Source: Nautilus pompilius (Eukaryota > Mollusca > Cephalopoda > Nautilida > Nautilidae). From it: DNA of 64,000 bases. This document shows, in pieces, positions 14,504-59,084 of the stretch. Positions within the stretch are counted from its first letter, which is position 1; each line of letters starts with the position of its first letter. Under the pieces are notes generated by a model. It saw only the letters and a program-made list of their open reading frames with translations, was not told where the DNA came from and made no database searches. The translations under genes were made by a program, and so were the position numbers. Location: positions 308,001 through 372,000 of the forward strand of contig JACATO010001004.1 of NCBI GenBank assembly GCA_018389105.1, read 5' to 3'.

Positions 14504-14822
14504 GAGGAGAGAGAGATGATGATGATGATGATGAGCGAGAGAGAGAGATGATGATGATAATGATGATGAGAGAGAGATGATGATGATGTGATGATGATGA
14601 GAAAGAGAGAGAGAGATGATGATGATGATGATGATGTGAGAGAGAGAGATGGAGAGAGAGAGTGTGTGTGTATATGTGTGTGAGAGAGAGATGGAGAGAG
14701 AGAGTGTGTGTGGGTGAGAGAGAGATGGAGAGAGAGAGATGGAGAGAGAGAGAGAGATGGCGTTAGTAAAAAGAGAGATATGACGTCAGTACAGAGAGAT
14801 ATGACGTCATCAGAGAGAGAGA
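14024..14822. repeat. compound GA/GAT/GT microsatellite with CRE motifs at its end
   Basis: It starts with a CA run (14024-14047). About 740 bp of alternating GA runs, GAT triplets (some GAT/GCT blocks), and GT runs follow. The final part (14765-14815) has two exact TGACGTCA palindromes between GAGAGATA units, the inverted form of the CRE satellite seen elsewhere. The 288-codon minus-strand frame (Ser-Leu-His) is a repeat translation. Confidence 0.95.
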
Positions 14823-15514
14823 GAACCTTTAAGCATAATATCGTACAGCACGCCATACTATGTTGCAGTATATAACGAACCATTAAGCATCAAAGTTGAG
14901 CATATCACAACTTAATGTTAGAATTGTCGCTATAATATACTGAGGATATATTAGAGGAAAAAAAACAAAACACGAATAAGTAAGTTATAATTTTTAATTT
15001 ATATTTTAAAAATCAAAAATATAAATAAACCTTATTTAACTAATTAAATTAATTTTAAAAAATAATTAGAAAATGGGATGGAACAACAAATAACATTATT
15101 AGGTAGTATTTATAAATAAATATATATATCTGCTGACCAGATAAGTCAGGGAAGGGGCTCAGTAAAGCCAAGAAAGGGGTTTTATAAACCGAAGTAGAAA
15201 TTCGACTGTATTAAGTTTTCCAACAGTTGATCTGCACATTTCTGCTACTGAAAGACTACAAATTATTAGTTATTATTCTACACATCATCAAACACGTGCT
15301 CTGACACGTGGCTACGGCACTTGCTTCTATTCCACATATGAAACCTGACAAGACGAACAATAACGGTTCCGGGTTTCCTTTGCATTAGTTCTTGCCCGGA
15401 GACTTTCCGGGTATAGATATACTGGCTTTCAACTTCTGTGCCAGAGCGCGGACCGTCAAGAGGTCCACGTGTCCGAGCAATTGGCGGATCTAAACATTCG
15501 CTTTATGCCGAGCA
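14823..15514. other. anonymous AT-rich sequence
   Basis: Strongly AT-rich to about 15130, then balanced. No gene seen. Confidence 0.45.
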
Positions 15515-15636
15515 TAAGCCACTTGCAGGACTTGTTAACGGGTTTGACGCCATGACGATGTTAGGGGATAAGACGTAAGCCACTTGCAGGACTTGTTAAC
15601 GGGTTTGACGCCATGACGATGTTAGGGGATAAGACG
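15515..15636 (+). repeat. 61 bp perfect tandem duplication
   Basis: Two identical 61 bp units (15515-15575 and 15576-15636), each beginning TAAGCCACTTGCAGG and ending GGGGATAAGACG. No difference is seen between the copies, so the duplication is recent or an assembly effect. Confidence 0.95.
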
Positions 15637-16632
15637 CACAGAGGTAAAGAGGTAGAAGCTCAGATTTAGTTTTACGTTTACTGGAAAAGGTGAACAAAAA
15701 ACAAAGATGCGCTTTCAGTGAATGTACCGTTAAACAGACTGAGACATCGGACTTAGAGACGGGGGTGGGAAGACAACAGGCATATAGATAGATGCGCAAA
15801 AACACCTGCTAAATCGTAATGCTTCCTGTAAAGTACTGTACAAGCATCTCCAAGATTCGCCTTGTCGACATTCTTTTGGTACTGAAGCGGCTGCTTATTA
15901 AAGTAGAGATAGCAGAGTTAATCAGATTTCATGTATGAGAACAGTAATAAAACGTATTTATTAGTATCCTAAGCTCAGTTTACAAAGTTTGGCATCAAAA
16001 ATACTTTTACCGATTAAAATTCAAAACTTTTCGGCATTTAAATACTTTTTAATTTTACTTAAATGTTCCGAACATTTTTTTTAAAAAAAAAAAAAGAAGA
16101 GAGAAAGACATTTCCACAGCGATGCGCAGATGAAGAATTACGGATGCAGAGAAACGTTTCGGTTTCCGTACATTGTTATTGTCAACACTTAAAATGTTAC
16201 ATTCATCTAAAGACGTTTAAATGCAGATCTAATGAAGGTTTACAAATAAATGATAGTTTCTTGATGTGTAGAAAGTGGCAGGTTCTTTTACTTTTTTTAG
16301 CTATTTATAGTCAAAGGTACTGAAGACCATAATTTTAAATTAGCAAAAGCGTCTGCGCGGCTCGATATTGAAAATATCTGAAATAAAAGGATTTCTAAAC
16401 GAAAGAGATTGTCAAAAACACTGCTAACAGTAGTAGTGTAGATCAGACTGCAATTCGTGGCATTTCTTTCAAACACAGAGGAAGTGATCGTGGAACTTTC
16501 CTAAATTGGATGTTAGAACTCTTTCATTGATGACGGCGTTTTTGCTTCTTTCATTAGCCACCGGGTTGAAAGCACGTGATAAATCATAGCCAATCAAAAT
16601 AAAGTCCGAACTTTAATTTATTCCGGGCTGTT
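15637..16632. other. anonymous sequence, no gene recognised
   Basis: AT-rich between 15880 and 16460. An A-tract lies at 16083-16096. Nothing else is supported. Confidence 0.45.

Positions 16633-17475: not shown

Positions 17476-17505
<30 letters not shown>
17476..17505. repeat. (ATT)n microsatellite
   Basis: About ten uninterrupted ATT units. Confidence 0.95.
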
Positions 17506-17506
<1 letters not shown>

Positions 17507-19250: not shown

Positions 19251-19300
19251 TCTCTCTCTCTCTCTCTCTGTCTGTCTGTCTCTGTCTCATCATCATCATC

Positions 19301-25488: not shown

Positions 25489-25765
25489 TGCTGTTGTTGT
25501 TAAGAGAGTTGGACGTCCAAATGCCGAGTCCTCCTCGTAACTGAGAGATGTTCGTCGAGCCGACAAGCGGCCCGGTCCCCCGACACCGTGGGCCCCAAGA
25601 GGTCTCTCTCAAGTTGGGCACCAAGGAGATGCCGTACAGCTGTTTCACGCTATGGCGATCATCAGCGACAACTCTCCTCCGACTCCAACCTGGGATCGAA
25701 CCCGGTACAGGAGCAACGGTCCCCTTACGGAGCTAACCATCTACCACCTGCCCCACTGGGCCGGC
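25489..25765 (-). mobile_element. tRNA-derived SINE, family A, copy 2 (inverted)
   Basis: Reverse complement of the 10075-10345 unit over its whole length, with a few substitutions and small indels. The head reads GCCGGCCCAGTGGGGCAGG. The B box GGTTCGATCC is retained, and this copy has the extra bases after the B box that copy 1 lacks. It ends TTAACAACAGCAA, the same 3' end as copy 1, which fixes the family's 3' terminus. The 205-codon frame 25588-26205 largely overlaps it and is rejected. Confidence 0.85.
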
Positions 25766-26662
25766 TTTGTTGTTGTTTCGGGGTGGGGTTTATTCGAGTC
25801 GCAGGGGCCAGTCCGTCTGCGCGGGTCGAATCACTAATCGCCCGTGGGAGGGGGGAGGTTCTTTTCCTTTTCGGATCATCCGCCGGGATACAGATCGCGT
25901 GGCCTCCTTCGTCGCATCCAACTCTCCTTGCTCCCCGTTCCCCAAGATTAATGGCTGGAGCCGTTCCTGCTAAACTGAACTTTCCGACAGCTCCCTGGGA
26001 AAGAGAAAAGAGAGACAAAAAAAAAAATGTAACTTTACGTAAATTGAGAAGAACTCCATTAATTGTGTACCTGAGGAAAAAAACTCATTTAAATACGTCG
26101 ATAATTCAAGCGTGGCCTTCTAACTTAACATTCCGCTTTGATCGACTTGTAAATACCATTTATTTATCAGCCGGCCTGGAGCACAGCCTGGCGTTCGACC
26201 GATAGAGTAAACAGTTCTGAACTTTGCATTAAACTGTTGACTGTGGTGAAGCACCAGGATCTTGACTGCTGGAGTTTTCCTTTTGTCTTATGTGCGTTTG
26301 CAAACTCTGAATGCCGAAAGGTGCTGAGAGGGAAATGTACAGGATGGTTTGTAGCCTATCGCTTGTCTTAAATACACCCTTAAGGAACCGCTGAGAGAAA
26401 CTGGAATAATAACCGGATGGTGTCGAACATGCGCACCAACTAAAAGCAAGAAGATCCATTACCTTCTTTTCCCTTTTTGCTTATTTTAAAGGGTTTCCAA
26501 TCGCACCACCACCACTGCTGCGTGATAACCGACCGAAAAAGCACGGAGCCAGTTCGGCCACCTCTCAGCCAGTCTCTCACCCACCCGCAGGATTCCTCGA
26601 CGTCATGTCTTTACATTCCTTCCGGAAACCTCCCATTTTATACCCTCGGTTTCGTTTTTTTT
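25766..26662. other. anonymous sequence, no gene recognised
   Basis: Mixed sequence leading into the T/G tract that borders the tandem duplication. Nothing supported. Confidence 0.4.
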
Positions 26663-27444
26663 GGGGGGGGGAGAGGAAGTCAGCGTCACACTTCCGCCTG
26701 GGTCGGTACCTTCCTTGTCGAAGCCTTCAAGACCCGACGTCACAACCGAAGAATGCTCGGCCATATTTTGCGTTTGTTGGGCTACACGTGATATCGGTCG
26801 GTGCCTTCGTCTCACCAGGACTCGCTAAGAAATTAGAGCGTGTCCGGCATTTTCATGGTTACCAGAAACTAGCCGGCGAAAGCCTCTGGCGTGGTTTTAA
26901 ATGCGCACCTGTCACGTCAAGATGGAAAATGAAGGAAAAACCGGAGGTCTCATCTTTAAATACGGACACGTGACGCGGAAGTTAATTGTGACGTTAAGTT
27001 TTCGCTGATATTGAGGCCGACATACGTCACTTTATTCAGTGGAAATTATATTGTCGCTATAAATGACTACTATTTTATCACGGACCCCATTTCTATTCTA
27101 AGCGTAAGATACCTTGATAAAGCGATGTCTTTGTTATTAATTCCCTCTAACATTATTAATAAGTGACTGCATTTCTGGCAGCGATGAAGTAACTTAGTCT
27201 GGTTCCGTCTTTACGAAAAGGTGTCTATCCATGTTAATTAAAATTAGCAAATGTTACATTATTTTTTTTAAGGATAATAGAAGTGAAGCGAGTCTCTGGT
27301 AGCTGAAAACCACTATAGACAGTTGTTATCTGGAGGTTTCAGCCTTAAAAAATTCCTCTCCAACAAATCTACTAGAATTTTTCAAAGGCGTAACTAAAAG
27401 ATGAGAGCCAAATGAAAGGAGCTCATTAATAGCAAGGTTTTTTG
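26663..27444 (+). repeat. tandem segmental duplication, copy 1
   Basis: A 782 bp unit beginning in a poly-G tract with GAGAGGAAGTCAGCGTCACA and ending AGCAAGGTTTTTT. Its partner follows immediately. Each edge falls in a T-then-G homopolymer, so exact boundaries are ambiguous by several bases. The unit contains CACGTG and CGTCAC motifs but no recognised gene. Confidence 0.95.
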
Positions 27445-28227
27445 GGGGGGGGGAGAGGAAGTCAGCGTCACACTTCCGCCTGGGTCGGTACCTTCCTTGT
27501 CGAAGCCTTCAAGACCCGACGTCACAACCGAAGAATGCTCGGCCATATTTTGCGTTTGTTGGGCTACACGTGATATCGGTCGGTGCCTTCGTCTCACCAG
27601 GACTCGCTAAGAAATTAGAGCGTGTCCGGCATTTTCATGGTTACCAGAAACTAGCCGGCGAAAGCCTCTGGCGTGGTTTTAAATGCGCACCTGTCACGTC
27701 AAGATGGAAAATGAAGGAAAAACCGGAGGTCTCATCTTTAAATACGGACACGTGACGCGGAAGTTAATTGTGACGTTAAGTTTTCGTTGATATTGAGGCC
27801 GACATACGTCACTTTATTCAGTGGAAATTATATTGTCGCTATAAATGACTACTATTTTATCACGGACCCCATTTCTATTCTAAGCGTAAGATACCTTGAT
27901 AAAGCGATGTCTTTGTTATTAATTCCCTCTAACATTATTAATAAGTGACTGCATTTCTGGCAGCGATGAAGTAACTTAGTCTGGTTCCGTCTTTACGAAA
28001 AGGTTGTCTATCCATGTTAATTAAAATTAGCAAATGTTACATTATTTTTTTTAAGGATAATAGAAGTGAAGCGAGTCTCTGGTAGCTGAAAACCACTATA
28101 GACAGTTGTTATCTGGAGGTTTCAGCCTTAAAAAATTCCTCTCCAACAAATCTACTAGAATTTTTCAAAGGCGTAACTAAAAGATGAGAGCCAAATGAAA
28201 GGAGCTCATTAATAGCAAGGTTTTTTG
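27445..28227 (+). repeat. tandem segmental duplication, copy 2
   Basis: Identical to copy 1 apart from one C-to-T substitution (at about 27787), one inserted T (near 28004) and the length of the bordering G-run. The offset is 782 bp before the inserted base and 783 bp after it. Identity above 99.5 percent means a very young duplication, or a collapsed or expanded haplotype in the assembly. Confidence 0.95.
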
Positions 28228-28910
28228 GGGGGGTATCTACAGTTACCAATACTAGGGACTCATGTAGAAAAGGCCAGTTTTATTTTCTGCTTCAGCAGTT
28301 AATTTCCATTTGATTCAGGGTCTTTCCACCGGACCCACACCCAACCCCTGCCGCCGCCTGGCCGGATACCTCAGCCCCCTCAGTTCTCTTCTTCTCGGTT
28401 TTGTACGATCACCCGCTGTCTTCGAGTCGCTGCAAAGGCAACTACGCTTACTTCGTTTCCTCGCGAGTGGACGACTCACCGCCGGACAACACGTTCGCGC
28501 ACCTGTTCCTCTACACTGGTACGTGGCAGGCATCTCAAGATCTTGAATGTCCTTAAAATCGCGATCAGAATTAAAACCTCTCAAATGTCAAAGATAGACG
28601 TCGTCTGAAAGTCGCGCTGGAATGGCAGAACCGAGCAATAAATAAATAAATAAATAAAACAGAAAAAGTTGGCAATAAAGGGTTTGACTGCGCAACACAC
28701 TCTCCCGCCTGATGCAGGCGCGTGAATAAAATGCACCGATTCGTATGTAACACACGTAGCTTCCCGAGAAGATAAGACTTATAAATACCCTATCGGGTTC
28801 CATAACACAGCACTCCACTGTAGGTCGGTATCTGTCCTTGCTGGTTGTGTAAGGCTACTGATAAGATTTCATTACCCATAATCGACCTGGCGAAGTGCGA
28901 TAAAAATGAA
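28228..28910. other. anonymous sequence, no gene recognised
   Basis: The stretch 28310-28520 is CpG-rich and open on both strands, without motif. An ATAA run lies at 28636-28657. Confidence 0.4.
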
Positions 28911-32360: not shown

Positions 32361-32612
32361 CTTTCTCTCTCTTTCTCCCCCTCTCTTTGAACTGACGTCA
32401 TCTGTCTCTCTGTACTGATGTCATATCTCTCTTTGAACTGACGTCATCTGTCTCTCTGTACTGATGTCATATGTCTCTCTGTACTGACGTCATCTGTCTC
32501 TCTGTACTGACGTCATCTGTCTCTCTGTACTGATGTCACATCTCCCTTTTTGAACTGACGTCATCCGTCTCTCTGTACTGATGTCATATCTCTCTTTGAA
32601 CTGACGTCATCC

Positions 32613-32650
<38 letters not shown>
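32361..32650 (+). repeat. CRE satellite array (32.4 kb)
   Basis: CT-rich DNA interrupted by six exact TGACGTCA palindromes and four TGATGTCA variants. Units alternate between TTTGAACTGACGTCATC and TCTCTGTACTGATGTCATA, about 22-25 bp apart. It ends in a pure CT run. Confidence 0.95.
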
Positions 32651-32652
<2 letters not shown>

Positions 32653-34758
32653 CAGTAGTTGTTGGGTTTCAGCGAGTTGCCGACTTCCTTCTTTGACATC
32701 CAAAGGCAGTGGACAACGTGAGAGGAACGGGATTCATGTATTCAGTGTCAAAGAATTAGGGGCAGGAGAGAAAGAAGTATGTGGCTCTACTATTAGGCCT
32801 CATTTTGAGCATATATACGGTATAACATTGTTAGTCTCAGATTTGGTTGAGGGGGGTCAAGTTTGAAGTAACTCGAGTACATCCACAGACACATTCAGGA
32901 CAGAATATCGATGGGTTATAACAAAGTAGAGGACAACCAGGAGCTTTTAAAAAATGGATCCCTATACATAACGAGTAATTTTCCAAAGAGTCGTTTAACA
33001 AAAGAAAACAAAATTATTAACGTTATTATCACCGGGTGGAAAGGTTCGTATAAACCGTCAGCAAGAGAGTAAGAGCTGGGACAAACAGAAATACGAGAAA
33101 GCGGACATAGGGGCTGGGCTTTCGCTTTTCTTCCACAATTTCCAACACCCCCCCCCGCGGGGCCTGCTAAATATTTGACGTGAAATTTAATTCTTTTCCG
33201 ATGTTGGCCTCTCGCAATTCCGCTCAGCACTCCTCGCGATCCTGACGGCTGGAGATCTGAACACTTTACTCTGACGTGCGGCTGACAAACACGAAATCGT
33301 TCCCTCTTGCTCTTCTTGCCCGACACGTAGAAAAGGACAGTACCGCAGCAGCAGCAGCAACAACAAGAATCCCGGAGCGCTGGTGAATCCGTGTCGTGTC
33401 GACGCTTCTATTTTGGAAGCAACACGAAGCCTTCCGATTAACAGATCGATTCGCGACGACGTCGATCCAACTGGGCAGCTCGAGTTTCTGCCCGCCTCTG
33501 GCGCTTTCCCTTCGAGCCCGCATATTCAGAGAGGAGGGAGAGATTGGGGAGGGGCAAACATCTGATTACTTATCGCCTTTTGTTTAAAAGTGTGCTTCCA
33601 CCGTACTTAGGCAACGCTGTCTGCTTCCGCTACCTGGTAGATTAGAAGGGCACTTCAGACTGATGATCCGTGATCGGGATTAGAAGATGGATGACAACAA
33701 ATCGCCGGCGTCTGATCAAAACCCCTCTGATGGATCTGAAAATTGCGAACCGCATTAAAGAATAGATCGAGAATTGAAACGTCGTCCTCTTCCGGCCCGG
33801 GAAACCCTTCGAAGGCTTTAATCACAGGGTCAGATTAGGTATTCGAACCATCTCGTCTCTCTCTCTCTTGACAACCAAGATCGTGTATAGCACTAATCCT
33901 ACCAGATCGCCTTTGAACAAATTTCTAGGCACCAACATTCTTCGAAACGATTGGGGTGTTCAGACCTGAATGTATTTCAAATGGCGACTTATGCTATGAA
34001 ACAAAGAAAACTACTGATGTTCTATCGTATATCATTAGGCTTCAGTACATCTATCAGCTTCGAGAGACGCACTTGCACATGGCTTTAACATCTTGATGGG
34101 TCATCTATTCTAAATCTCTTTCGATCTCTCTGCTAGCCATCACGTCATGGTCAGGTGCTTATATGGAATTCACCTCGTACTGTCCAAAAGAGGTATATTT
34201 GTATTTGAAGACGTTTAATGTCATCTGCCATTTGTGTGATCAGAAACAATCTGAACCGGATTGCATTATTTCATCGATATCGTTAACCACAAATATGCTT
34301 TCGTTTATCAGCGGAGTTCTCATTTTGTAGGTTCCATATTAAACTTGGGTGTCTCATACAGCGCTGGCTTGACGTCCCCCCCATACACTTTAGTCCCTTA
34401 TGCTTAAGAGTCATTCAGGTCACGTGACCACACAGGAATCCGCTAATGGCGGCAGTTTAGCTAATAAATCCCTCCGCGCCTTCGGTCTCGGTGGACGACC
34501 CTTTTGTGCTGTCAACGTATTTTTCGCCACAGCTGCAAGAGGAGAGAGAGTAGCGCCCTTAAGTACGGCAAGCATTTCAGCAGATTATCCAAACACGGCA
34601 GGGAGGTAGGGCGTGTGGTGGAATCCGGTTGTGCGGAGGGGGAGTGGGGACGGTTTCCTAAATAGCACCGTCGCGATGATTGGTTTACCATCGCGGACGC
34701 CATTCTTGCCTGGGTCTCGCCTCGCAGGCGAAGCGCGGAAAAGCGACGACAGCCCCCC
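32651..34758. other. anonymous sequence, no gene recognised
   Basis: It includes a CAGCAGCAGCAGCAACAAC run near 33345-33366. An AATGGCGGCAG (YY1-like) motif lies at 34444. Nothing assignable. Confidence 0.4.
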
Positions 34759-38600: not shown

Positions 38601-41600
38601 CATGAAGATTCGTCCTCTTCACGTTAGTCACGTCGCTCGCTGCGCACATTCGGCAACTTTAATTCGATATTCTCCAGAATTTTTTTACAATTCTAGAGCG
38701 AAATTTTAGCCATGGCTGTAAATGGTGTCCCTGCCCTCAGTCCTTTCCCAGTAAGGTGCCTCGCTATTCGCTGCCTTCTAGGTCCGTGGATCGACCACTC
38801 ATCAAAAGGTAACCATTACTTTACCTTTAATTACTGTCATATAGAACCAGGCGACTACGTCGGTGCGGGATCTTAATTAAAGATGTAGGATAGCGAATGT
38901 CTTATGTTAATTCCAAGTGATTAAAAAATAATATATATATATATAAAGCTACAAGTTCTTAAGCTTCCGAAGAGATACAAATAGACAATAGCAGATCTTC
39001 CTTTAAAATTTATTCTGTGATTTAACAATGGCGGGCTGTCTTTATCGGGCTAATAATTCTCTTATTTGAGGTAAGCTACGGTAGGAAAGCAGTAACATAG
39101 GTGTAGGTTAAATCGATTTATTTGCTAGTGCGTTTTGATTTCGTCGTTGTGTTTAGTTGTTTGCGCGTGGTGATCGAATCTGCTGATTATTTTCAAAGAG
39201 CTCTCTTGGCCGGGAAGTAATTTCTGCGAAAACGATCCGGAAGTGGGCTAAAGTGGTCCGGCTCACGTGGCTACTGGCGGGTGACAAGTTGCGGAAGCGC
39301 TGGCGAACCGAATCGCTACTTCTGGTCGGGGCTCCTGAAGGGGCACCTCCCTCCAGCTCTCCGTCAGTGGTCGGGCGCCGATCTGCTGGTGTTGAATATC
39401 GCTGACAGAAGTTGATGGAGCTGCAGTCGGCAGTAACGGATGGCCACGTCATCGGCCTGGTGGGTTCAGTCGGGCGGGTTAGTTACAGGAAACCCCGGGG
39501 CAATTTTGGGGTCGGGTCCCGACCATGCTCACCACCGGCCGTTCGTCAGGTCCCCATCGTAAGATCAAAGATGGACTCCTGGCTCCGTCGGTTAAGCGGA
39601 CCCGAGGGCCAATGCATGAATTTGTAAACTTTGTCAGTAAACTATTTCTGAGGGTTTCGCTTAAATACACATGGAAAATCAACGCAAGCACATTTCAACC
39701 ACTAAACTGTAGATTTGTACTAATATTTTTTTCTCTCTCCCACAGAACTGTAATTTGTAACGCCAGGCTTTACTGAGCCCCAGTATTTGAAATCGAATAG
39801 AAACGATTTACTCCGGGGAGAATAGTTTTCTAGCTGCACCGCGAGAAAATAGTGCCACGGCGCAGGAGTTCTGCAGTGAATACTAATAGAGTGTGGAAAT
39901 AAAGTCTTCGTAAGACAATATGGAACCTGGGAGGGGAGAGACGGCGGGTGGTTGTAACACTTTTCGAACAGATCCGTTTTATTCCGGAAGTATGTACAGG
40001 GAGATTGCGGTTCATCGGATGTAAACTACTAGAACGAGGAACCGATCACATAAAGTTGTTATGATGAGATAACGCACAACTTTAGCAAAATTCAAACATT
40101 TCCCCGTGTCGAAGTGTTGCAGTTACCCTCAGGTCCAGCCGAGCAGTAACACCATAATTACATACCCAAACAGTAATTTCCGTTGTGCACCAAACTGGGC
40201 AGAGACCTTTAACCAAGTGAAACTCCAACACTTTCCCTGTTAAAGCTGATTGCTCACTGGTGGCTTCAGGTACTCCGACTGGCAAAGTTGGATGGCGCTT
40301 CCTGAGCCTGCCCGGCCAATATGGTCCAGCACATTCGTTACCATACCACGAATCTGGAACCTCGTTGCCATGTCTTTTAACTAGCTCAAAAGCAAATATA
40401 TTAAGGTCCCTATAAAATATTCAAAAAAAAATTTTGACATTTTTCTGCTTGGTTTTCTAATTTCCTTGTTTTTTGCTCATTACTGAACACTTTTCTGTCT
40501 CTAGTTTAACCAACTCGGAGAGTTTGTTTGGCACTGGTTCTGCCATTAGCCGAACTGGTTCGAAGTAACTTGACAAATGCCATAATCACTTGCAACAGAT
40601 GGTTATTTGACGCTACTTCAGGTACAGCTGGCATCATAATATCAAGAGGAGTCTTATCTTTGTGTTTTTTTCTTCTTCTGTACTGAACGAGCCATTAGTA
40701 TTTACTTATTGATTGTTTTGGTTTATTTGAGCGTGATTGACAGAACTGGTACATCCAGGAAGATCTTGTACTGTATCGCAAACAGACGGCTAGAACTCGA
40801 AAGTCAACATGGCGTGTTCGGAGAATAGGGAGTAAGCTTATGGTAGAGAGCTGGACAGCGGGAAGTCAACAGCCTACTAGGCTATACGAAAATAATGTAG
40901 CCGAATTATCAAAAGTCCAATTTAGTGTACGGGAGAGTATTAGAATAAAATAGAGAAGAATAAAGTAATCTTATTTGTAACTTCTCTGAATACTGGAATC
41001 TTTATGAGCAACCAAGATCAGCAGAGAAACAACGGCAACGATGCCATTATTGTTTTGACTTGACTGTGAGGACTCTCATCATAATAACAAATACCGTATT
41101 ACCTGTTTACTAACCTGAATACTGTTAACTAAACGTTGTGAAATAACAAGTAGTTAAAGTTTGTTCGCTCTTTTCAGATTACAGTACACATTAGAGTGAC
41201 GTCACCTGACCTTTTAACCAGCGCCGCCATATTTCGAGTTGATCAGGGGCTGAAAGCTGAAGGGCCATTTTGATTACATGTTATGGTGACTAGCTATCGA
41301 CGCTTCGGAGATCCCAATAAAAGCTCATTAGAGCTGCAGGTTCAAAAGTTCACGAGTCTTCCCCGTTAAAAAGAACGCGAGAAATTCTAAATACGCCCTA
41401 CTTCTGCTTCAGTCCAGCAAGTTGCGGGCTGTACGGTATTTATGCGGAACTTACTGCGGCTCTCTGAGAGAGTTCGATACAAAGCGGAGATCAACGGGTC
41501 AGAATCCGCTTCATCAAATCCATGTATGTCTCGATAATCCTATTTCGCGACGCCTACTATGCTGTAAGAGGCCAAAATCCACTGCGTCTTTTCTAGAAAA

Positions 41601-41807
41601 GCGGTCATCGCCGTATTGGCTGCATTTCCTTCTTGATCCCTAAAGATCACGGGATTATACCCCTCGACCTTTTCAAGGGCTTATGGGTATAAATAGCTTA
41701 GCGCTACTGGGGCTGGCCTAATCAGTCGTCACCAAACGAATATATGCTTTTGCGAAATCCATCATTAATTTGTCCATTTCGATGCTGTCCTTTTTAATTA
41801 TAGTTCG
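35673..41807. other. long anonymous stretch, no gene recognised
   Basis: About 6 kb without a recognised gene or repeat family. A CpG-rich patch lies at about 39230-39620. A CAACAACAA run lies near 38432, a CA run at 38487-38500 and an isolated TGACGTCA at 41197-41204. Open frames at 36075-36299, 37255-37482 and 36899-37093 read like ordinary peptides but have weak splice sites and no motif. Confidence 0.4.
41197..41204. promoter_or_regulatory. isolated CRE palindrome
   Basis: Exact TGACGTCA outside the satellite arrays, in the context GAGTGACGTCACCTG, 25 bp before GCGCCGCCATATT. It may be a genuine bZIP site near a promoter or a chance match; about one is expected in the window. Confidence 0.3.
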
Positions 41808-42507
41808 AGAAAGACTCTCCTCCCAGCATTCCCGCAGGTAAAGACTCTCCCCCCCAGCATTCACGGAGAGAAAGACTCTCCTCCCAGCATTCCCGCAGAT
41901 AAAGACTCTCTTCCCAGCATTCCCGGAGAGAAAGACTCTCCTCTCCCAGCATTCCCGCAGATAAAGACTCTCTTCCCAGCATTCCAGGAGAGAAAGACTC
42001 TCCTCCCAGCATTCCCGGAGAGAAAGACTCTCTTCCCAGCATTCCAGGAGAGAAAGACTCTCCTCTCCCAGCATTCCCGCAGGTAAAGACTTTCTTCCCA
42101 GCATTCCAGGAGAGAAAGACTCTCCCCCCCAGCATTCCCGGAGAGAAAGACTCTCTTTCCAGCATTCCAGGAGAGAAAGACTCTCCTCTCTCAGCATTCC
42201 CGGAGAGAAAGACTCTCCTCCCAGCATTCCAGGAGAGAAAGACTCTCCTCCCAGCATTCCAGGAGAGAAAGACTCTCTTTCCAGCATTCCAGGAGAGAAA
42301 GACTCTCCTCCCAGCATTCCAGGAGAGAAAGACTCTCCTCCCAGCATTCCCGCAGATAAAGACTCTCTTCCCAGCATTCCCGCAGATAAAGACTCTCTTC
42401 CCAGCATTCCCGCAGATAAAGACTCTCTTCCCAGCATTCCCGCAGATAAAGACTCTCCTCCCAGCATTCCCGCAGATAAAGACTCTCTTCCCAGCATTCC
42501 CGCAGCC
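41808..42507 (-). repeat. 30 bp minisatellite, 23 units
   Basis: Twenty-three head-to-tail copies of a 30 bp unit. On the plus strand each contains CCCAGCATTCC, then CGCAGATAAAGAC or AGGAGAGAAAGAC, then TCTC. The two sub-types form blocks: GATAAAG types cluster at 42340-42500, and GAGAAAG types at 41980-42340. A few units are 32 bp because of an extra CT. Since 30 is a multiple of three, all minus frames are partly open. The longest runs 266 codons (42518-41718) as a ten-residue repeat like MLGRESLSAG, then ends in unique sequence. No signal sequence is seen, and the frame has no ATG before the first repeat unit. Coding is unlikely but not excluded. Confidence 0.95.
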
Positions 42508-44724: not shown

Positions 44725-47700
44725 GTTGATCGATAAGGGGGAAATTTACGAATGCTTATAACGTATTTTGAAAGTGGATCCAAACTTTTAAAATTTTGCT
44801 TAAATTTCCGGACGTCTTCTTTAATGAATGGGGATAATTCGAAAGTCTTTCTGTCACCGTTGTGCATTTCGTAGCGAGTAAGCTTTCACTTCGGCGAGAG
44901 CCATTTGTTACGGAAACCCGCTTGCATAGGGTAAGAGGGTTCTTAACAGGGTGGCTAATAACAAACCATCGGGTGCAAGAATAGAATTGAAAGCAAAGAA
45001 AAAGGACATTACCTCCCTTGCTGTGGGCATTTAAATTCAGAGGCTGTTTTTTTCAATATGGCAGATAAGACGAGAGAAATACGTTAAGATCCCTTAAACT
45101 TGCTATTACCGCATGAAACCTGACATTTATTTATTTGTTATCTATTGTTAATACAGTTTCTTAATTGACATTTTTTTTTTCTGTTCTAATTTTAGAACCC
45201 GATGCGGGTCTGAAGGAAAACGAACGCTGAGCAATCGGCGAAAAGCAATATCCGTAGACATCCACAGGCAACTGGAATTGATGAAGATGCGGGATATATT
45301 TGTGCCGATAAGCTAGCGAAGATACCCTGGTGAGTCGACCGCACAGACCTGTGGCCTTCTTCGGAGCAGGCATGAGCCACAAAACATTGCAGTTTTCATA
45401 AACTCAGAATAAAATGAACTTAGGTTTTATATTTGGATTGTATACGATGTCTTAAAAACGGAGATATTATGTTTTGGTGTTTGCATACTATTAAGAAATA
45501 TTCAACATTTATACTATAGGAATACTGAAGGCTCCTTTTCTGTTTTTTTTAAGAAAACAAACAAGCAAGAAATCGCTTTTATATTTGCATCGGTCAAACG
45601 ACTAAATTTTGAAAAGAATCAAGGAAGTTTACTGTATCAACTACAATTATAAGATGTTTGTTAGATTACCACTCTGTTCACAAGAGATGCTACAGTGTGT
45701 GTTTTCGTCAAATGTATTAGTATTTTAATGAAGTTTTATTATGACCATCACATCAACTAAGAAGCAGATATTGTATCGAATATCCAACTATCATTTCACA
45801 CGGTCTCACCTATAATTTCAAAATTTAAATTCTGCTCATTAAAGAATTCCCAAAGTGTATTTTAAAGCGTTTCTCTACACGGCTTAACCTAGTTTGGAAC
45901 TGATTTCCCAGTGGCAGTGGTTTCGGTTTGCTGAACTACTTATAAATTTCATCTTAGCGAATAACTGAGGCAGTTATCGAATCGATAATTTGAAATATCC
46001 ACTTTCTCCAGAATAGGCGATATCATTATTCGATACTCTGGTGTACGGCATAACCATCTCCTAAACGGGATTCATGTCGGTGATAAATAGCCCGGTGACC
46101 TTTAAGTGAGAGGTGGGGAGAGGACTGAATTAAATGGGACGATAAAGACCCTTTGAGCTCTGATTACTTTGATTCTTTTTTTTTTTTTTTTGAACAAAAA
46201 TAATTAATAACTCAGGTGAACTTTAAAAACAAACAACAAAAAAACAAAACTTTTAGCACTTCGATCGGCGGATTGCGAGTTGGGTTACTCGTCTGGCATT
46301 CTTCCGACATTCGCAAAATTAAAATTATGACGGCCGCAGAAAAGCAAAAAAAAAAAAATCAAGCAAAACTAATATGAAATAACACATTAAAAACAGGAGA
46401 GATTATTATAGCCAGTCACTGCGATCAATAGATCCCAGCCTCTCCATCTTATCGGCCCGAGGAGCACCATTTTCTTCCGGAACGAGAAAAGAATGTTTTA
46501 GCCACACAACAGAACTTATCTTTGCCAAATCCCTTATACATGATTTATATCTATATCAGCCATTCCTTGCCATATATATATATATATATATTATTTTTTT
46601 TTTTTTTTTTTAAAGTAACAGCATCAATAGGGAATTATCAGTATTCGTCCAGGCGCCATTCTTTATCCGTCGCGTAGTTCGCAAGATCTCTGATAAGAAG
46701 TCGCTTCTCCTTCTTTTCTTTTGATGTTAGAAATGACGTCAAACTCTTTCACTTACACGTGACCAGGTTAGAGTCTTTCTAATTCGTCATGACCATCCCG
46801 CCAGCCCACCCACCTTTCTCCTTCGTGGTTAGTTAGACGGCCGAGAAGTATTAACTTAGCGTCTCTGACCACAGCCTGGATTAAATACCACCACGTGCGG
46901 ACGACTTCCGCCTGCGTAGGCAGTCAGTCCTACGTTCGAATAATCTGCCGGTGTTTACTGCTCTAGCGCAGGGAATCCATTTCAGGAAAAGAACGAGATT
47001 ACGTCCCTTCGGGGAGGGGAGGAGGGGGTCGGCTTACCTCCCCCTCCAGCGTTTGCATTCCGTCAGGGTTCGCTCGATTCCCTTTCCTTATGTGCTGATC
47101 AAGCGCAAAGAAACGGGGACGCGGCCGGGTTGTGTTCTTCGGGGAAAGGGGGCGATTGCACGACGGCGCCTCTGTCGCGCTTTAATATCGCTCCGACAAT
47201 GTGCTGATCCGATCGCCGCTGAGGGAATCTTCGACATTTGCCACATTTCTGTCTTTGTTTTCTTTTTCAATGTCCTCCCCCTCTTTCTCCCCAACCGGTT
47301 CGTTAACGAAGAGAGAAGCCACTGGCCGTAGTAATAGCCCGGTCTGTGGGTAGAGTGACACGTGACTTATTACGAACACTAAATGAAGAATCATCTTTAC
47401 TCGCTCTTTGTCGAGTCACGTTTTGAGGTACCGTCTCACGGGCCGACGGTGGTCAACCGGCGGACTGCTGGGGCTCTGGCAGGGACTTCCCATCTATTTG
47501 TGATCGGGGCTCCTCGCCGATGTCATACACTTAGTTCTAGCGCCGAGAGCTAATTGTCCTTGAAACAAACAACCACGAACGACTACCTAAAATTCAGAGT
47601 TTTCAAGTCATTCTGCAGTTATGTCTCGCGTTTTACGAAGATTTTATTGAGAAAAATGCACCGGCTGTAAAATAAAGAAAGAAATATTTTTTAAAATTTT

Positions 47701-47904
47701 TTTTATTACAAGTTAGAAGAGAAAAACTGGGCCTGGTTATTACAACGCCAGCAATTTATAATTAAAGGTGTAGCCTTACATACTCTACGTCATATTTCTA
47801 ACGTATAGATGACACTATAATCGACGTCATACATTTCGACCTTCATTGTGAATTACTAACAGTGTAACAGCGATTCCGGGTGGTCTACCGAACTTTTTAC
47901 TTAC
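44725..47904. other. anonymous sequence, no gene recognised
   Basis: AT-rich from 45380 to 46400 with A/T tracts, a T15 tract near 46177 and a TA/T stretch at 46572-46612. From 46800 to 47330 it is CpG-rich, with a 126-codon frame lacking motifs. An isolated TGACGTCA lies at 46734-46741. Confidence 0.4.
46734..46741. promoter_or_regulatory. isolated CRE palindrome
   Basis: Exact TGACGTCA in AAATGACGTCAAAC, outside the arrays and about 70 bp before a CpG-rich stretch. Function is not shown. Confidence 0.25.
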
Positions 47905-48359
47905 CAGAGAGAGATGATATCAGTACACATAGAGAGATGACGTCACTACAAAGAGAGAGATTACGTCAGTACACAGAGAGAGATGATGATGTCAGTACAA
48001 AAAGAGATATGACGTCAGTATACACAGAGAGAGATTACGTCAGTACACAGAGAGAGATTACTTCAGTACACAGAGAGATATGACGTCAGTATACAAAGAG
48101 AGAGATTACGTCAGTACACAGAGAGAGATGATGATGTCAGTACAAAAAGACGTCAGTACAGAAGAGATATGACGTCAGTACACACAGAGAGATTATGATG
48201 TCAGTACAAAAAGAGATATGACGTCAGTAAGTAGAGATATGACGTCAGTACACACAGAGAGATTATGTAAGTACAAAGAGAGATATGACGTTGGTATACA
48301 CACAGAGAGAGAGATGACGTCAGTAAAGAGAGAGAGAGAGAGGGAGATATAGAGAGAGT
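47905..48359 (-). repeat. CRE satellite array (47.9 kb), inverted
   Basis: GA-rich on the plus strand. It has seven exact TGACGTCA palindromes plus the variants TTACGTCA (three), TGATGTCA (three) and AGACGTCA. Spacers read CAGTACACAGAGAGAGAT or similar. It is the reverse complement of the same pattern seen at 32.4 and 54.7 kb. Confidence 0.95.
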
Positions 48360-50751: not shown

Positions 50752-50752
50752 C

Positions 50753-50872: not shown

Positions 50873-50888
50873 TGACGTCATATAAATA
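50873..50888 (+). promoter_or_regulatory. CRE abutting a TATA-like box
   Basis: The exact palindrome TGACGTCA is followed without a gap by TATAAATA. Such direct abutment is unusual; natural CREs normally lie tens of bases upstream of TATA. No transcript is evident, so this is only a motif observation. Confidence 0.25.
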
Positions 50889-52061: not shown

Positions 52062-54714
52062 TCGTGCAAAGAACTCGAGCACCGCCTTCGCGTGCTGTCT
52101 AAGTCCGTGACATTGGGCATTATTCGCATTCGAGACGATGGGCCGTCTGAGGCTTCGTGGCGGTCGGGGAAGGCGAAGACGAGTCGACAACATCCGGCTG
52201 TCATACCTGAGGCCCGAGGATGGGAATGGAAAAAGTCGGGAGGAGCGACCGACAAGGAGGGGGTTAGGGGACGGGTCGAGATAGTTGCTCCAGTCCTTAA
52301 TTTCCTCTGGCTCGGATGGGTTTGTTCGCCTGTTGCCTCGCTGTCGCGCGCGCGCGCGATCTTTCCCGGTGATGCGAACGTTCCGCTTCCGGATACCGTT
52401 TATGTACTTTGACTTAATGGACTTCGGCACTCCTTAGGTCCCCCCCTTTCGATAGCACCACGACGACGCTTTCACTCGATCGCCCGCCTCCTCGCGGTTC
52501 CATCAACAAGGATAGCGCCTTCCAGACGACTGTTGTTAATGGGAGGCTGGAAAACGTGGCGTCGCAGCGTAGTCGGAAAGTCTGGCCGCAACCGTGGGCC
52601 AGCTAATAGAAATAAGGATATTTGAAGAATATGTCCACTGGCCCCAAATTACCGTAACAGGGTTTGGTACATATTTTCCGGAAGTTATATTACAGTACAC
52701 GATTCTCTTCTGTCCGTGCATGATATCGGGACATTTTGCTGACTTCACGATATATTTCGCACTGTGTTAACCTTTTCCAGACCGACAGATAGTTGTCAGT
52801 TCTCTCAGGCCCCGCGCCGATTGACCAACAGCCGTTCGCTAGGCTTCCTCGGCTGCGCTCGTGAAGTTCGGCCAAGCCTTTTGGGTAACCTATAGTCTCT
52901 TAGAGGCAAACCGCGACAAAACGGGATTCGCTCAACGATTGCCATAGAGATGCAGAAGACCATTTCTGGCCCCGACACTAGATACGACGGGTTGTACATA
53001 TCACGCAAGTACAATGTAAATTCGGTTTTGTATTGCCTTGAGCCAGCCGGTGAGGATAAAGTGTGGATGAGTTCCTTCAACCACTTACACTGACTCAGAA
53101 CCATCAGTGAATGGGGGGGGACGAGAAAGGGGAGAGTGTCCCGTGAACGTTAGTATTCCGGTCATCTATGATGGCTGCTTTAAAGCGTCGCCCTCGTTAC
53201 GCCCCCAACCTGGTTTTCATTTGGCATATGAAAGAGTTAACAAAAGTTTCGTAAATGTCTTTCTTGGTTCTGGAAGGTTAGATTTGCCAGTTCTGAGTTT
53301 CGGGCAATTAGTCGACCATGTTTTCGGATATATATCCGCGTGTTTCTCTTCGACTGTAAAATGATTGGCGTCGCTCTTTACGAAGTCCGCAAGCCACGCA
53401 TCATTTCTACGTGACGTCATGTGACGGGAAGCAACTCTCGCGTGTCAGTTGCCGCTAATGAAGCATCTTCTGGGCACTTTCAAGTGAGAATCTCCTTAGG
53501 ATTCCTAGCCATCAACTCAGCGCTTCACCACAGTGGCAATCACCGTGATTGCTGGTGACTTGTCTCAAAAGGGCAGACGGAAACACAAAAAACAACTAAC
53601 ATCGGGGAAACCTCTTTGATCGAGGGGCGGAGTAAATTGCGCAGGGAACCGTCTTCTCCGAGTTAATATCTCCTCGGATCTGTTCCCGCGGATATTTACG
53701 ACTTCAAAGAAAAACTGTTTTGTAAAAAGAAAAAGAAAAAAACAAAAAACTCTGAACTTCCGCGCTACGTACCTTAGGGTAAAAGAATGTAATAATTTTG
53801 AAAAGAAATTCAACGGGAGCGTAATAATTACTCCGCTTTAGGGAAAGTTGAATATAAACATTTTTCTTAGCCTCGACGACCGAATAAATTTGAGAGAAAA
53901 AAAGACTGGAACTGTTTCGGTAAATCGCGAATTGCTGTGACTGGCAACCGTGTTAAATACGGCTGTGGTACATAGATTCGGAAAAAAAACAATGAAACTT
54001 AAGGGTTTAAAAGTTCGGTTGACTTTTTAACTACAGGGGAAAGAACAGAAAAGTGAAGCGCTACAAAGTCTAACGCTTAAAGTTTTCTAATCAGATTTTT
54101 GTTTTTGTTTTTTTTTAAGATTGTCGCAAAACTGGAATGATGAAGATCAAGGAAAAGACCGACAGCAGTTCGCGGTTGGTGAAAGTCGATTACCGCACCG
54201 AAGCAGAAGTTTAGAACATTGCGAGAAGAATCCGCACTCCGACAGCTCCAATGGATGAGGAAGTTTAAGGAAACCCTGTCTGTTCAGCTAATGGCAGAGA
54301 CCAATCAAATAGACCAGACCACTGCAGCATGATGGGGAGGTCGGGGGAAACAGCTTCGCCGCGGCGGCCCACGAGAGCTGAACGGTCCCTGAAATTCTTC
54401 GAGTGAGGTCGCACCAGCAAGGGCGAGTCTTAAAAGATACGCCAACAATTCCACACGGACGGGAACGTTTCCGAAGAACCTGCGTGCCTTTCAAAACCCG
54501 GCGTTCCAGCTCTTTTTAGAAAAGATCGGCCAGAGAAAACATTTTTAAAAGATTACCGACAGGGGCCGCGGTCCTCAGAGATTCGAAGGTGAGTCACGTT
54601 CCAACAACTGAATGTTTCCGCGAGCGGCCAAAATTTTTTGATCAAGTTCAAGCAACTCATCTTTTAGTACCAACAGAACTTCCTTTTTGTGCCGATCAGA
54701 ACACGATGTTAACT
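52062..54714. other. anonymous sequence, CpG-rich at left, no gene recognised
   Basis: From 52070 to 52560 it is GC- and CpG-rich, with a CG run at 52347-52358; this could be a promoter-type island. An isolated TGACGTCA lies at 53412-53419 in CACGTGAC-like surroundings. Open frames up to 145 codons lack motifs. Confidence 0.4.
53412..53419. promoter_or_regulatory. isolated CRE palindrome
   Basis: Exact TGACGTCA in ACGTGACGTCATGTGAC, outside the arrays. The flanks extend the symmetry partly. Function not shown. Confidence 0.25.
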
Positions 54715-55131
54715 GCTCTCTCTCTCTCTCTCTCTCTGTTTACTGACGTCATATCTCTGTGTACTGACGTCATTTCTCTCTCTCTGTATACTGACGTCAT
54801 ATCTCTCTCTGTATACTGACATCATATCTCTGTGTACTGACGTCATTTCTCTCTCTCTGTATACTGACATCATATCTCTCTCTGTGTACTGACGTCATTT
54901 CTCTCTCTCTGTATACTGACGTGATATCTCTCTCTCTGTATACTGACGTCATATCTCTCTCTGTGTACTGACGTCATTTCTCTCTCTCTGTATACTGACG
55001 TGATATCTCTCTCTCTGTATACTGACGTGATATCTCTCTCTCTGTATACTGACATCATATCTCTGTGTACTGACGTCATATCTCTTTCACTCTCTGTACT
55101 GAGGTCATATCTCTCTCCCTCTCTCTCTCTC
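54715..55131 (+). repeat. CRE satellite array (54.7 kb)
   Basis: CT-rich with eight exact TGACGTCA, three TGACATCA, three TGACGTGA and one TGAGGTCA. Two spacer types alternate irregularly: GTGTACTGACGTCATTTC and GTATACTGAC followed by GTCATATC or ATCATATC. Motif spacing is about 20-30 bp. It ends in a CT run. Confidence 0.95.
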
Positions 55132-56361
55132 CTAATTACAAAAAAAGTAGTTTTAAAAATACGAAAAAGAACTGTAAAAAAATAAATATCGTCGTACCAA
55201 AAACAAGAAAATTTCTGAAGGTAGTAATATAAAAATATAAAATGCTAAATTAATTCCAGTAATGACTTTTCAAATAAAATAAGAAGAAGACAGAAACAAC
55301 AATGGATTTCCTCAGGGGAAGTTCTCAGTTTTACGCAAATAACTGGTTTGCGTAGATTGCACCAAGGTTAAATGATTCCGTGAGCCGAAAGGCGGAGGAT
55401 CAATGGAGGGTTAGTGAGGGAGACCGGAGATAATTGTCATAATGGTCAAAAGCATGTTACGTCGATTACAGCTCCTCGTCTATACGTTTAATTAAAAGGT
55501 TCTGTAACAACGCACCAGTGTAATAAGTATCCCCGATGCTCTCCCCCTACATACGCTGTAATTTTACTTCACAGCGAAAAGCGCCGAGAAAGTTCCCAGC
55601 GGTAATTCATTTGCAGAACCAGGGGACGCCGCCTGGCTGACCCCGCCTCCCTTGGAGACTGCGCGTGCTGCCATCGTCCCGGACTAACGGTAAACGATCC
55701 AGCTCTCACCGACGTCTGCTTTTCTCCAGGAAAGAAATCTCGCAAATGAAAAATGAGTTGCAGGAGCCGCGTCTTTATATCCAGCGCCCACTGAGCTCTT
55801 TAAAGATGCAGCCGGAGTCCGGATTCTTCGATCAGCAGCGTGGTGTTTGCGCTGTTCGATTTCGACAGTAGATTTCCGGGAGCGGGGGATGTGACGTCAG
55901 AAGACGGATCGCGGTCGGTGTCGGGTAAAACGGGGCGGATGCATCCTCGTGCGCCTTCTTCTCCCCGCTCTTCGAACGCCACCCTCAAACATCCAGCGCC
56001 GTTCGGAGCAGCTGCCGTACCTGTAATTGTGGAAATTTTGAGTTAATTGCTTTGGGCAGACGGTCGTCTTTTATTGCCCGGATTCGCTTTTCTTGTTTCG
56101 TCTCGCGTATGGTCCACGTGAATGGGAATCTAATTTCCTCTTTGTCTCTCTCTTTCTTTTGTTGTTTTGTTCTGTTTTCTTATGGATCCTGGCTGCCAAC
56201 TCGCCGGTCGAAAACCGAGTACAGATTTCTGCCAGAAGTTGGTGGTGGAGCAAGAAATCAATTCTTGGAAAGAAAGGTAGGGGAGGGGGATGAGAGACGA
56301 CATCGCGGACCTTAAATGAAATCGCTGGCTTCGTAGACGGGATCTACCTCGCGGTGGTTAC
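55132..56361. other. anonymous sequence, CpG-rich 55560-56040
   Basis: AT-rich to 55500, then CpG-rich, including an isolated TGACGTCA at 55892-55899. Motif-free open frames up to 87 codons. Confidence 0.4.
55892..55899. promoter_or_regulatory. isolated CRE palindrome in CpG-rich DNA
   Basis: Exact TGACGTCA in GGGGGATGTGACGTCAGAAG within a CpG-rich 480 bp stretch. Of the isolated sites, this is the most promoter-like setting, but no transcript is visible. Confidence 0.3.
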
Positions 56362-56878
56362 TTTCTTCTCTCTCCATCTCCATCTCTCTCTGTAACTGAC
56401 GTCATCTCTCTCTCTTTGTCACTCTCTCTGTAACTGACGTCATCTCTCTCTCTTTGTCACTCTCTCTGTAACTGACGTCATCTCTCTCTCTTTGTCACTC
56501 TCTCTGTAACAGACGTCATCTATCTCTCTCTCCATCTCTTTCTCTGTAACAGACATCATCTCTCTCTCTGTAACTGACGTCATCTCTCTCTCCGTAACTG
56601 AGGTCATCTCTCTCTTTGTCACTCTCTCTGTAATAGACGTCATCTCTCTCTCTCTCTCTCTTTGTCACTCTCTCTGTAACAGACGTCATCTATCTCTCTC
56701 TCTCTCTCTATCCCCATCTCTCTCTCTCTGTAACAGACGTCATCTCTCTCTCTCTCTCTCTCTCTTTGTCACTCTCTCTGTAACAGACGTCATCTCTCTC
56801 TCTTTGTCACGCTCTCTGTAACTGAGGTCATCTCTCTCCATCTCCATCTCTCTCCATCTCTCTCTCTCTCTGTAACTG
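56362..56878 (+). repeat. CRE satellite array (56.4 kb)
   Basis: CT-rich array with spacers such as TTTGTCACTCTCTCTGTAAC. It has four exact TGACGTCA, several AGACGTCA (AACAGACGTCAT), one AGACATCA and two TGAGGTCA. The first units have a period of 40 bp; later units are irregular. CCATCTC runs occur at both ends. Confidence 0.95.
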
Positions 56879-57825
56879 CTAGAACCATTTCCCTTTTAGA
56901 AGACACCGCGCCAGAGACGTGCGCCAAACCGAAAACGATCCCGACCGGAGTCCGAACTCGGATTTTATTTTTTACTTTTCCCCTCCTCTCTCTCTCCCTC
57001 GCCCTGCCTGGCTCCAAGGACCTGCCAGTCTACAGATTTATGTTTACTAGAAACATTTACGATTAAATCGGTTCGGGTCTAAGAGCGATCTGTCTGTCCA
57101 GCAGCTGAATTGAAAGAGAACTCATATTTCGCCAGTAGACGCGATCTCGGCTTCCTAAAAAGGTAAGCGCGGCCAGGTGTGGCCGACCATAATAATTAAC
57201 AGGCAGGTAGATAACCAATCTTGGAGAAGCCTTCTTCTAAACCGTGGAAACTCGCGTTTCTTTCTGCGCTTTAATATCACCCCCCAACCTCCCAACGTTT
57301 GCGGCACAAATCACGGCGGCGGATCTCAGCAGAAAACTCTGTAAGGAGGAAAAAAACATTATTTATCACCAAATCCGACATTTTTAGCTCACGTTTTATT
57401 GCGCAATTTATCATCTGCACCAAAACAGAAGAAAATAATCTTTTTTTATTCTATTTTTTGAACGGATGAAGGCTTCGCTCAATAATAAATTTCGACTCCT
57501 TTTAACAAAACACGGGATGGAGTAATTCAGACTTTCAAATGAAATGAATTCTTTATAACCCTGATTTTGCCTGTTTTTTTGGGGGGGTTTGCTGCTCTGC
57601 TGACGCTTCTCTTCCTGAAATATACAGACTTTCTCCACCCTGCAGTTCAAATGCATCCCTATTGCTGCTGTACAGGTTGTGTGATAGCCTTCATCTCCAG
57701 GTCTTTGTATTTTAGGTTTTGGTTTCCCCGACTTCCTTGGCAGGGACATTTCTCTCTGTTGGCACAGTGAAGAGGAGGGTGTAGCACATATTCACTTACT
57801 TGACTATGATGTCCGTAGTCCTTAG
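56879..57825. other. anonymous sequence between two CRE arrays
   Basis: About 950 bp of unique sequence separates two CRE arrays. A strong donor AAAAAG|GTAAGCGCGG lies near 57161 and could end a non-coding first exon, but nothing else supports that. G8 tract near 57582. Confidence 0.35.
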
Positions 57826-59084
57826 TCTCTCTCTCTGATGACGTCACATCTGTCTGTAATAACGCAATCTCTTTCTGATGACGTCACATCTCTCTGTAAT
57901 AACGCAATCTCTTTCTGATGACGTCACATCTCTCTGTAATAACATAATCACTCTGATGACGTCACATCTCTCTGTAACAACGCAATCTCTTTCTGATGAC
58001 GTCACATCTCTCTGCAATAACGTAATCTCTTTCTGATGACGTCACATCTCTGTAATAACGCAATCTCTTTCTGATGACGTCACATCTCTGTAATAACGCA
58101 ATCTCTTTCTGATGACGTCATATCTCTGTAATAACGCAATCTCTTTCTGATGACGTCACATCTCTCTGTAATAACACAATCTCTTTCTGATGACGTCATA
58201 TCTCTCTGTAACAACGCAATCTCTTTCTGATGACGTCACATCTCTCTGCAATAACGTAATCTCTTTCTGATGACGTCACATCTCTCTGTAATAACGCAAT
58301 CTCTTTCTGATGACGTCACATCTCTCTGTAATAACAATCACTCTGATGACGTCACATCTCTCTGTAACAACGCAATCTCTTTCTGATGACGTCACATCTC
58401 TCTGCAATAACGTAATCTCTTTCTGATGACGTCACATCTCTGTAATAACGCAATCTCTTTCTGATGACGTCACATCTCTGTAATAACGCAATCTCTTTCT
58501 GATGACGTCACATCTCTCTGCAATAACGTAATCTCTTTCTGATGACGTCACATCTCTCTGTAATAACGCAATCTCTTTCTGATGACGTCACATCTCTGTA
58601 ATAACGCAATCTCTCTGATGACGTCATATCTTCTGTAATAACGCAATCTCTTTCTGATGACGTCACATCTCTGCAATAACGCAATCTCTCTGATGACGTC
58701 ATATCTGTCTGTAATAACGCAATCTCTCTGATGACGTCACATCTCTGCAATAACGCAATCTCTCTGATAACGTCACATCTCGGTAATAACGTAATCTCTT
58801 TCTGATGACGTCACATCTCTGTAATAACGCAATCTCTTTCTGATGACGTCACATCTCTCTGTAATAACGTAATCACTCTGATGACGTCACATCTCGGTAA
58901 TAACGTAATCTCTCTGATGACGTCATATCTGTCTGTAATAACGCAATCTCTTTCTGATGACGTCATATCTGTCTGTAATAACGCAATCTCTTTCTGATGA
59001 CGTCACATCTCTCTGTAATAACGCAATCTCTTTCTGATGACGTCACATCTCTCTGTAATAACGTCATCTCTCTCTCTCTCTCTG
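57826..59084 (+). repeat. large CRE satellite array (57.8-59.1 kb)
   Basis: About 1.25 kb of 37-43 bp monomers. Each carries CTGATGACGTCACATCTCTC and then GTAATAACGCAATCTCTTT. I count 31 exact TGACGTCA (57839 to 59038) and one TAACGTCA variant near 58770. Second-half variants include CAATAACGTAAT, ACAACGCAAT and AACATAATCA. A 390 bp higher-order repeat is visible: the ordered variants from about 57905 to 58110 recur at about 58295-58500. Frames over it read as Thr-Ser-Ser-Glu-Arg repeats and are not genes. Confidence 0.97.

Follow-up and report, generated by a model that had tools for sequence, protein, structure and literature searches.

What accounts for the recurrence of one eight-base palindrome, set into CT microsatellite sequence, at seven separate places within 64,000 nucleotides of the Nautilus pompilius genome? 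The stretch in question (the window: C959:308001-372000, i.e. positions 308,001 to 372,000 of contig JACATO010001004.1, from an assembly of 2558 contigs that total 727,640,739 bases) carries short tandem arrays in which CT runs are interspersed with TGACGTCA, an octamer that qualifies by sequence as a cAMP response element (CRE), the ATF/CREB site. A preliminary description of the window saw in them one family rather than independent expansions of CT microsatellites, and offered either spread by transposition or gene conversion or selection on the motif as the cause. Our data uphold the first notion, through the polarity of the unit, a rule for its flanks and an array that carries both unit types (see below), but not the causes as offered: recent spread is at odds with the private words of the arrays, and selection on the octamer finds no general support, with a hint from one array (A7). 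To our minds, the arrays probably represent one old minisatellite family embedded in microsatellites, which was dispersed long ago and has since been homogenised array by array.

The window holds 68 exact copies of the octamer, compared with a mean of 1.12 and a maximum of 5 in 100 dinucleotide shuffles, and 63 of the 68 fall into seven arrays (A1 to A7; bounds set by us, total span 3,243 bases), in agreement with the roughly 63 sites at seven loci counted before. On the plus strand, A2 (32363-32652) has ten cores spaced by 23 bp (one by 25), six of them exact and the other four TGATGTCA, and terminates in a 37-bp CT run; A3 (34757-35003) repeats a 21-bp unit as a 42-bp dimer, GA-TGACGTCA-CA / GTAA-TAACGTCA-TA, with five of ten cores exact; and A5 (54716-55132) has 15 core-like sites at spacings of 21-29 bp, eight exact and all 15 with TAC upstream. 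Further along the same strand, A6 (56368-56872) contains 12 core-like sites (four exact, five AGACGTCA) with a period of 38 and spacings of 24-54 bp, together with TTTGTCAC half-units, and A7 (57826-59083) is made of a 36-40-bp dimer in which 31 exact CREs alternate with TAACGCAA-like cores. The inverted orientation described for the remaining two holds as well: A1 (14749-14820, minus strand), which sits at one end of a long compound AG/GAT microsatellite, has three units and two exact CREs, with one GA-type and one GTAC-type unit, and A4 (47905-48358, minus strand) has 17 core-like sites, seven of them exact, spaced by 16-46 and mostly 21-26 bp.

Read along the CT strand, the arrays share one plan, (CT)n - GTA(A/C) or GAAC - TGACGTCA - (T/C)A or T - (CT)n, with units in tandem head-to-tail and CT left at both ends in all seven. 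The CT run, GTA(A/C) and octamer noted earlier are all present, and to these we add GAAC and GA variants: upstream of the octamer we find GTAC, GTAAC, GAAC or GA, downstream TA, CA or T, and the GA that precedes the intact core instead of GTAC in A3, A7 and one A1 unit had been missed. A2, A4, A5 and A6 are of the GTAC, GAAC or GTAAC types; in the dimers of A3 and A7, intact GA-TGACGTCA-CA alternates with decayed GTAA-TAACGTCA or TAACGCAA. Cores are mostly 21-29 bp apart, or 36-42 bp in the dimers and in A6, and in most arrays these distances change in steps of two, as expected from CT slippage. A flank rule, albeit fitted post hoc once the arrays had been seen, is satisfied by 62 of the 63 array cores as against 115 of 60,550 control positions.

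These seven loci are by no means the only ones in the genome. The pattern TGACGTCATN{0,2}CTCTCT matches 46,929 times (19,088 + 27,841) in 727.6 Mb, a count that includes double readings of one core (13 among 100 matches listed), and the same pattern read backwards matches 19 times (15 + 4). The earlier observation is confirmed and turns out larger than stated: related arrays lie at many loci and form a dispersed minisatellite or satellite-like family. Since the octamer reads alike on both strands, arrays that arose independently should show either polarity equally often. A CRE with GA after it, the reverse polarity, is matched 428 times (191 + 237), a ratio of about 110 to 1, and such a bias despite the palindrome argues for one ancestor. 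The 100 matches listed form 19 places within 718 kb of one contig, C1, 12 of them plus, seven minus and none mixed, although five of the 19 places rest on just one or two matches; extrapolated from these first 100 matches on one contig, there would be very roughly 9,000 places genome-wide.

The octamer by itself occurs 93,914 times in the genome compared with 19,528 for the reversed word, and as this control word has no CpG and the genome is partly CpG-depleted, the latter figure probably overstates the background. CRE density averages 129 per Mb genome-wide, 92 per Mb in twelve sampled 10-kb stretches (11 in 120 kb) and 1,063 per Mb in the window, which is about eight times richer than the genome average. 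The roughly 74,000 copies of TGACGTCA beyond the reversed-word count amount to a very large load of one perfect transcription factor site for a 0.73-Gb genome. They might draw off or rewire cAMP/ATF signalling, or else illustrate massive multiplication of a canonical site without consequence.

How the arrays relate to each other can be read from their units. A1 places a GTAC unit after a GA unit, 21 bp apart and in the order found in A3, and over the first 48 columns of its alignment with A3 this pair shows 3 differences; with both unit types and so close a match in sequence to A3, A1 links the array types by descent. Similarity among inserts (n=115) is higher within than between arrays by 0.22 (permutation maximum 0.05, n=1000), and the arrays are thus in concerted evolution. 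Within A7, a block duplication leaves 175 identical bases at a lag of 390, and of 21 pairs of units ten apart, 6 are identical. Exact words, from which diverged copies escape, were taken from A2, A5, A6 and A3/A7, with A1 and A4 left out: all three genome copies of a 35-base A2 word lie inside A2, and likewise all three of the A6 word inside A6; the A5 word has five copies, four in A5 and one on C990; and the A3/A7 dimer word has 19, 17 at three C959 loci (97, 343 and 366 kb) and two on C595. At C959:97 kb and on C595 (274 kb) these belong to full A3/A7-type arrays in CT tracts, with unrelated flanks. With array words private or nearly so, each array evolves locally, and sharing is rare and confined to a few loci. 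As recent genome-wide transposition would leave identical words in many places, recent spread by transposition or gene conversion is not supported, and an older, diverged spread of the family suggests itself.

We therefore envisage an ancestral unit of about (CT)n-GTACTGACGTCATAT-(CT)n which would long ago have been scattered among thousands of CT microsatellites, in either orientation along the chromosomes, nearly always being copied with its CT strand attached. The simplest route may be that CT tracts, as the shared homology, recombined or underwent gene conversion with each other. Slippage and unequal exchange would later have lengthened, shortened and homogenised each array where it lies, as internal block duplications and private words suggest, with new types arising per array and occasionally becoming shared by a few loci (A3, A7, C959:97 kb, C595). 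The CRE octamer would be a passenger, decaying at least as fast as the positions beside it in most arrays of the window; binding of ATF/CREB factors may occur, with no sign that this matters for persistence of the family. An old age would fit with the genome paper (730.58 Mb, the smallest cephalopod genome then sequenced), the consulted parts of which report an old burst of DNA transposons and no recent expansion of transposable elements (PMC8257504).

Several observations weigh against an old, passively carried family. For the dispersal step, which we infer, neither an empty site nor a donor-recipient pair was seen. Just one of the twelve sampled 10-kb stretches has a CT-CRE array (two have arrays of a second CRE-bearing repeat, see below), so the window is not typical. 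TGACGTC also occurs in that second repeat, a coincidence not to be expected from descent alone. Five lone exact octamers lie outside the arrays, at 41197-41204 (no CT context), 46734-46741, 50873-50880, 53412-53419 and 55892-55899 (GC-rich surroundings), where about one is expected, namely 0.79 (first-order) to 1.12 (third-order), and this excess is unexplained. In A7, substitutions affect 1 of 246 CRE cells but 13 of 246 cells of the partner core, for which constraint could be the reason.

The last three points would also favour a view in which the octamer is selected and the arrays are regulatory clusters bound by ATF/CREB, each retaining some perfect sites. We hold this to be unlikely, even though the alternation of intact and decayed cores in A3, A7 and mostly A2 may mean that one good site is kept per dimer. 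Sites that match the octamer at six or more of eight positions number 107, of which 63 are exact (32 of 67 outside A7), cores with heavier decay, for example TAACGCAA in A7, falling below this threshold. In A2, A4, A5 and A6, such cores are substituted at 33 of 432 positions (4/80, 13/136, 7/120 and 9/96, respectively) compared with 2 of 152 in the adjoining AC/TAC/AAC, a flank that was, admittedly, picked because it had been seen as fixed, and in copies that are non-independent. In an array on the CpG-poor contig C5, six of eight core-bearing inserts read TGAAG. These counts lend no support to selection on the octamer in general. For A7 alone there is a hint, by cell counts, of a CRE cleaner than its neighbours, other fixed positions being substituted in 11 of 248 cells (Fisher by cells 0.0016 against the partner core, 0.0058 against the other fixed positions). 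Yet its copies are not independent either, and tests by columns give 0.57 and 1.0. Pfam searches with 110 of the window's 425 open reading frames (at least 55 aa) revealed no gene, the one weak match being to Frag1 (E 0.0039), ten window frames gave nothing at E 0.1, and Rfam and tRNA scans had no matches.

Alternatively, a mobile element (Helentron/HINE-like or other) might carry the arrays as its central repeats. In the Pacific oyster, another mollusc, the parts consulted of a survey describe Cg_HINE/Helentron elements as carrying short dispersed tandem arrays beside a microsatellite, the arrays being fixed in orientation relative to their flanks (PMC7492417), and in the one pair examined, the second CRE repeat is located between similar inverted arms. 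The oyster survey covers monomers of 100-500 bp with similar flank stretches of 50-100 bp (PMC7492417), whereas the nautilus units measure 19-42 bp and no ends are shared in 22 flanks compared. Among the 14 1-kb flanks of the seven arrays, with the overlap of neighbouring A5-A6-A7 flanks set aside, none is shared (best match 25 bases, E 0.003), nor are eight further flanks from arrays on C595, at C959:97 kb, on C5 and at C1:8 kb, for which one 30-base match (E 4e-4) leads to a non-flank place in the window. Conserved element ends of the HINE/Helentron kind were not seen in these 22 flanks, array borders on both sides are CT rather than element ends, and target duplications at array ends stay at control level in all seven arrays (fraction of controls at least as high as observed, 0.12-0.98). 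The lack of shared flanks and of target duplications, both proposed as checks in the preliminary description, hence speaks against a carrier, which we judge improbable. The unshared flanks, together with local alignments between different arrays at ~66-92% identity, also exclude that the arrays are assembly copies of one locus.

A different role for the octamer, as engine rather than passenger, may be conceived by analogy with yeast. ATF/CREB binding at perfect CREs beside polypyrimidine tracts would open chromatin and draw meiotic breaks, and the arrays would as a consequence expand and seed nearby CT tracts through repair. According to parts of the literature, CRE sites in fission yeast are meiotic hotspots via Atf1-Pcr1 (PMC2677671, PMC9775316), and in budding yeast ATGACGTCAT is a hotspot via Cst6, with M26 uncorrelated with natural breaks (PMC3534124). 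The heptamer ATGACGT of ade6-M26/CRE is found in all seven nautilus arrays; the ten-base budding-yeast motif ATGACGTCAT occurs once in A1, six times in A7 and in no other array. The yeast sites, however, are single or triple and do not form an array family in what these sources describe. We think it doubtful that this is how the family came about, but if true it would make the family a selfish recombination satellite, licensed by a transcription factor and comprising tens of thousands of CREs.

That CT microsatellites expanded convergently, each on its own, might be proposed in view of compound CT/CAT microsatellites without CRE in the window (5.6, 14.1 and 19.3 kb), but the same palindrome in one polarity (46,929 vs 428) between common GTA(A/C) and TA flanks refutes it as the main cause unless some mechanism forces polarity, and we give it hardly any credence. 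Foldback as the driver was rejected, the z-scores for single-stranded DNA of six segments (-2.5, -0.6, -4.7, -0.8, -2.2 and -2.4) not being uniform. Family words are absent from the viral contigs scanned.

The old, microsatellite-embedded family that we favour belongs with dispersed minisatellite or satellite-like repeats. Families in Lepidoptera that are spread by RTE elements resemble it in being dispersed and tied to a simple repeat, but share the 3' end of a retrotransposon beside that repeat, whereas in nautilus a short unit is interspersed with CT inside the tract (PMC2887409, in part). Tribolium TCAST-like elements likewise are short satellite arrays dispersed in euchromatin, for which a regulatory role was proposed; they are homologous to the major pericentromeric satellite, and the parts consulted mention no CRE or CT embedding (PMC3411249). 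In keeping with the earlier remark that no described family with this structure is known, six CT-CRE family words had no match in 5.39 million open-licence papers, no such family is among the titles of the 12 listed out of 282 matches for Nautilus satellites, and the term 'tandem repeat' is absent from the main text of the Nautilus genome paper (PMC8257504). A CT-embedded CRE unit without carrier ends on such a scale was not found described in these searches. For satellite-like arrays that are dispersed with no element ends found, polarity and private words make the mechanism of spread testable across Nautilus and Allonautilus.

The second CRE-bearing repeat, TATGACGTCRATTATAG, is represented in the window by a piece at 47813-47831 (minus strand, on which it reads TATGACGTCGATTATAGTG), 74 bp from A4. 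Its 16-base core pattern, ATGACGTCRATTATAG, has 1772 genome matches as opposed to 2 in the control. Among the matches listed it is often single and sometimes in close inverted pairs, of which the one examined, on C97, has similar inverted arms of ~57 bases, and it has also expanded into tandem arrays of several periods. Arrays of it with periods of 42 and 30 bp are present in two of the twelve stretches. Copies lie at L142 9894-9999, at L147 8049-8315 and in L162. Seemingly unrelated to the CT-CRE family, this repeat resembles the terminus of a non-autonomous DNA element and, in contrast to that family, looks element-borne.

As for the genomic setting, the ratio of observed to expected CpG is 1.0 in the window. 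Seven of the twelve 10-kb stretches are strongly CpG-depleted (0.20-0.42; TpG 1.17-1.34), four range from 0.86 to 1.10, and the remaining one, at 0.60, is mixed. Both states meet on C360 (10 kb at 0.22, 2 kb at 0.90) and on C595 (0.81 in the array stretch, 0.26 just beyond), and CT-CRE arrays are present in both (C5; C1 and C959). Such a mosaic would reflect mosaic domains of germline methylation in the nautilus genome; in Octopus, methylation is reported, in the part consulted, at below 10% and concentrated in gene bodies (PMC9476566). A mixture of two organisms in the assembly is disfavoured, with C360 and C595 each mixing states and the CpG-poor C5 bearing a family array. The molluscan hemocyanin domain PF14830 matches 14 times in the genome, seven times each on C557 and C1362, and in none of 14 control genomes; the two sets could be paralogues or haplotypes. 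One of these units scores 613.6 bits with a chain of 4yd9 (4yd9_C), 593.3 with 1js8 and 486.5 with 8tnv, other chains of single-unit length being listed at 371 or less. We take 4yd9 to be squid, 1js8 octopus and most other matched hemocyanin chains gastropod. Cephalopod hemocyanins are described, in the part consulted, as having no functional unit h (FU-h) (PMC7931591). Seven units per contig agree with the cephalopod type lacking FU-h, which octopus would fit too. A vertebrate host was rejected on the PF14830 matches.

Two array edges resemble splice sites: at the right edge of A2 (32614-32657, plus strand) a 37-bp CT run is followed by TTGCAG and is acceptor-like, and the edge of A4 (47892-47912, minus strand) reads CTGGTAAGTA and is donor-like; no gene matching either edge was found in the window. 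A 171-aa open frame (3625-4140, minus strand) has no Pfam match and may encode a transposon-type protein. An inverted pair (10074-10344, plus strand; 25492-25766, minus strand), 90% alike and bearing the tRNA-like box-B motif GGGTTCGATCCC, is a probable short interspersed element (SINE). The window also contains a tandem duplication (26656-27450 / 27438-28233) with an offset of 782 bp and 99.6% identity, a 30-bp minisatellite of ~23 copies at 41807-42502 with long open frames on both strands, and a perfect 61-bp tandem duplication at 15515-15636.

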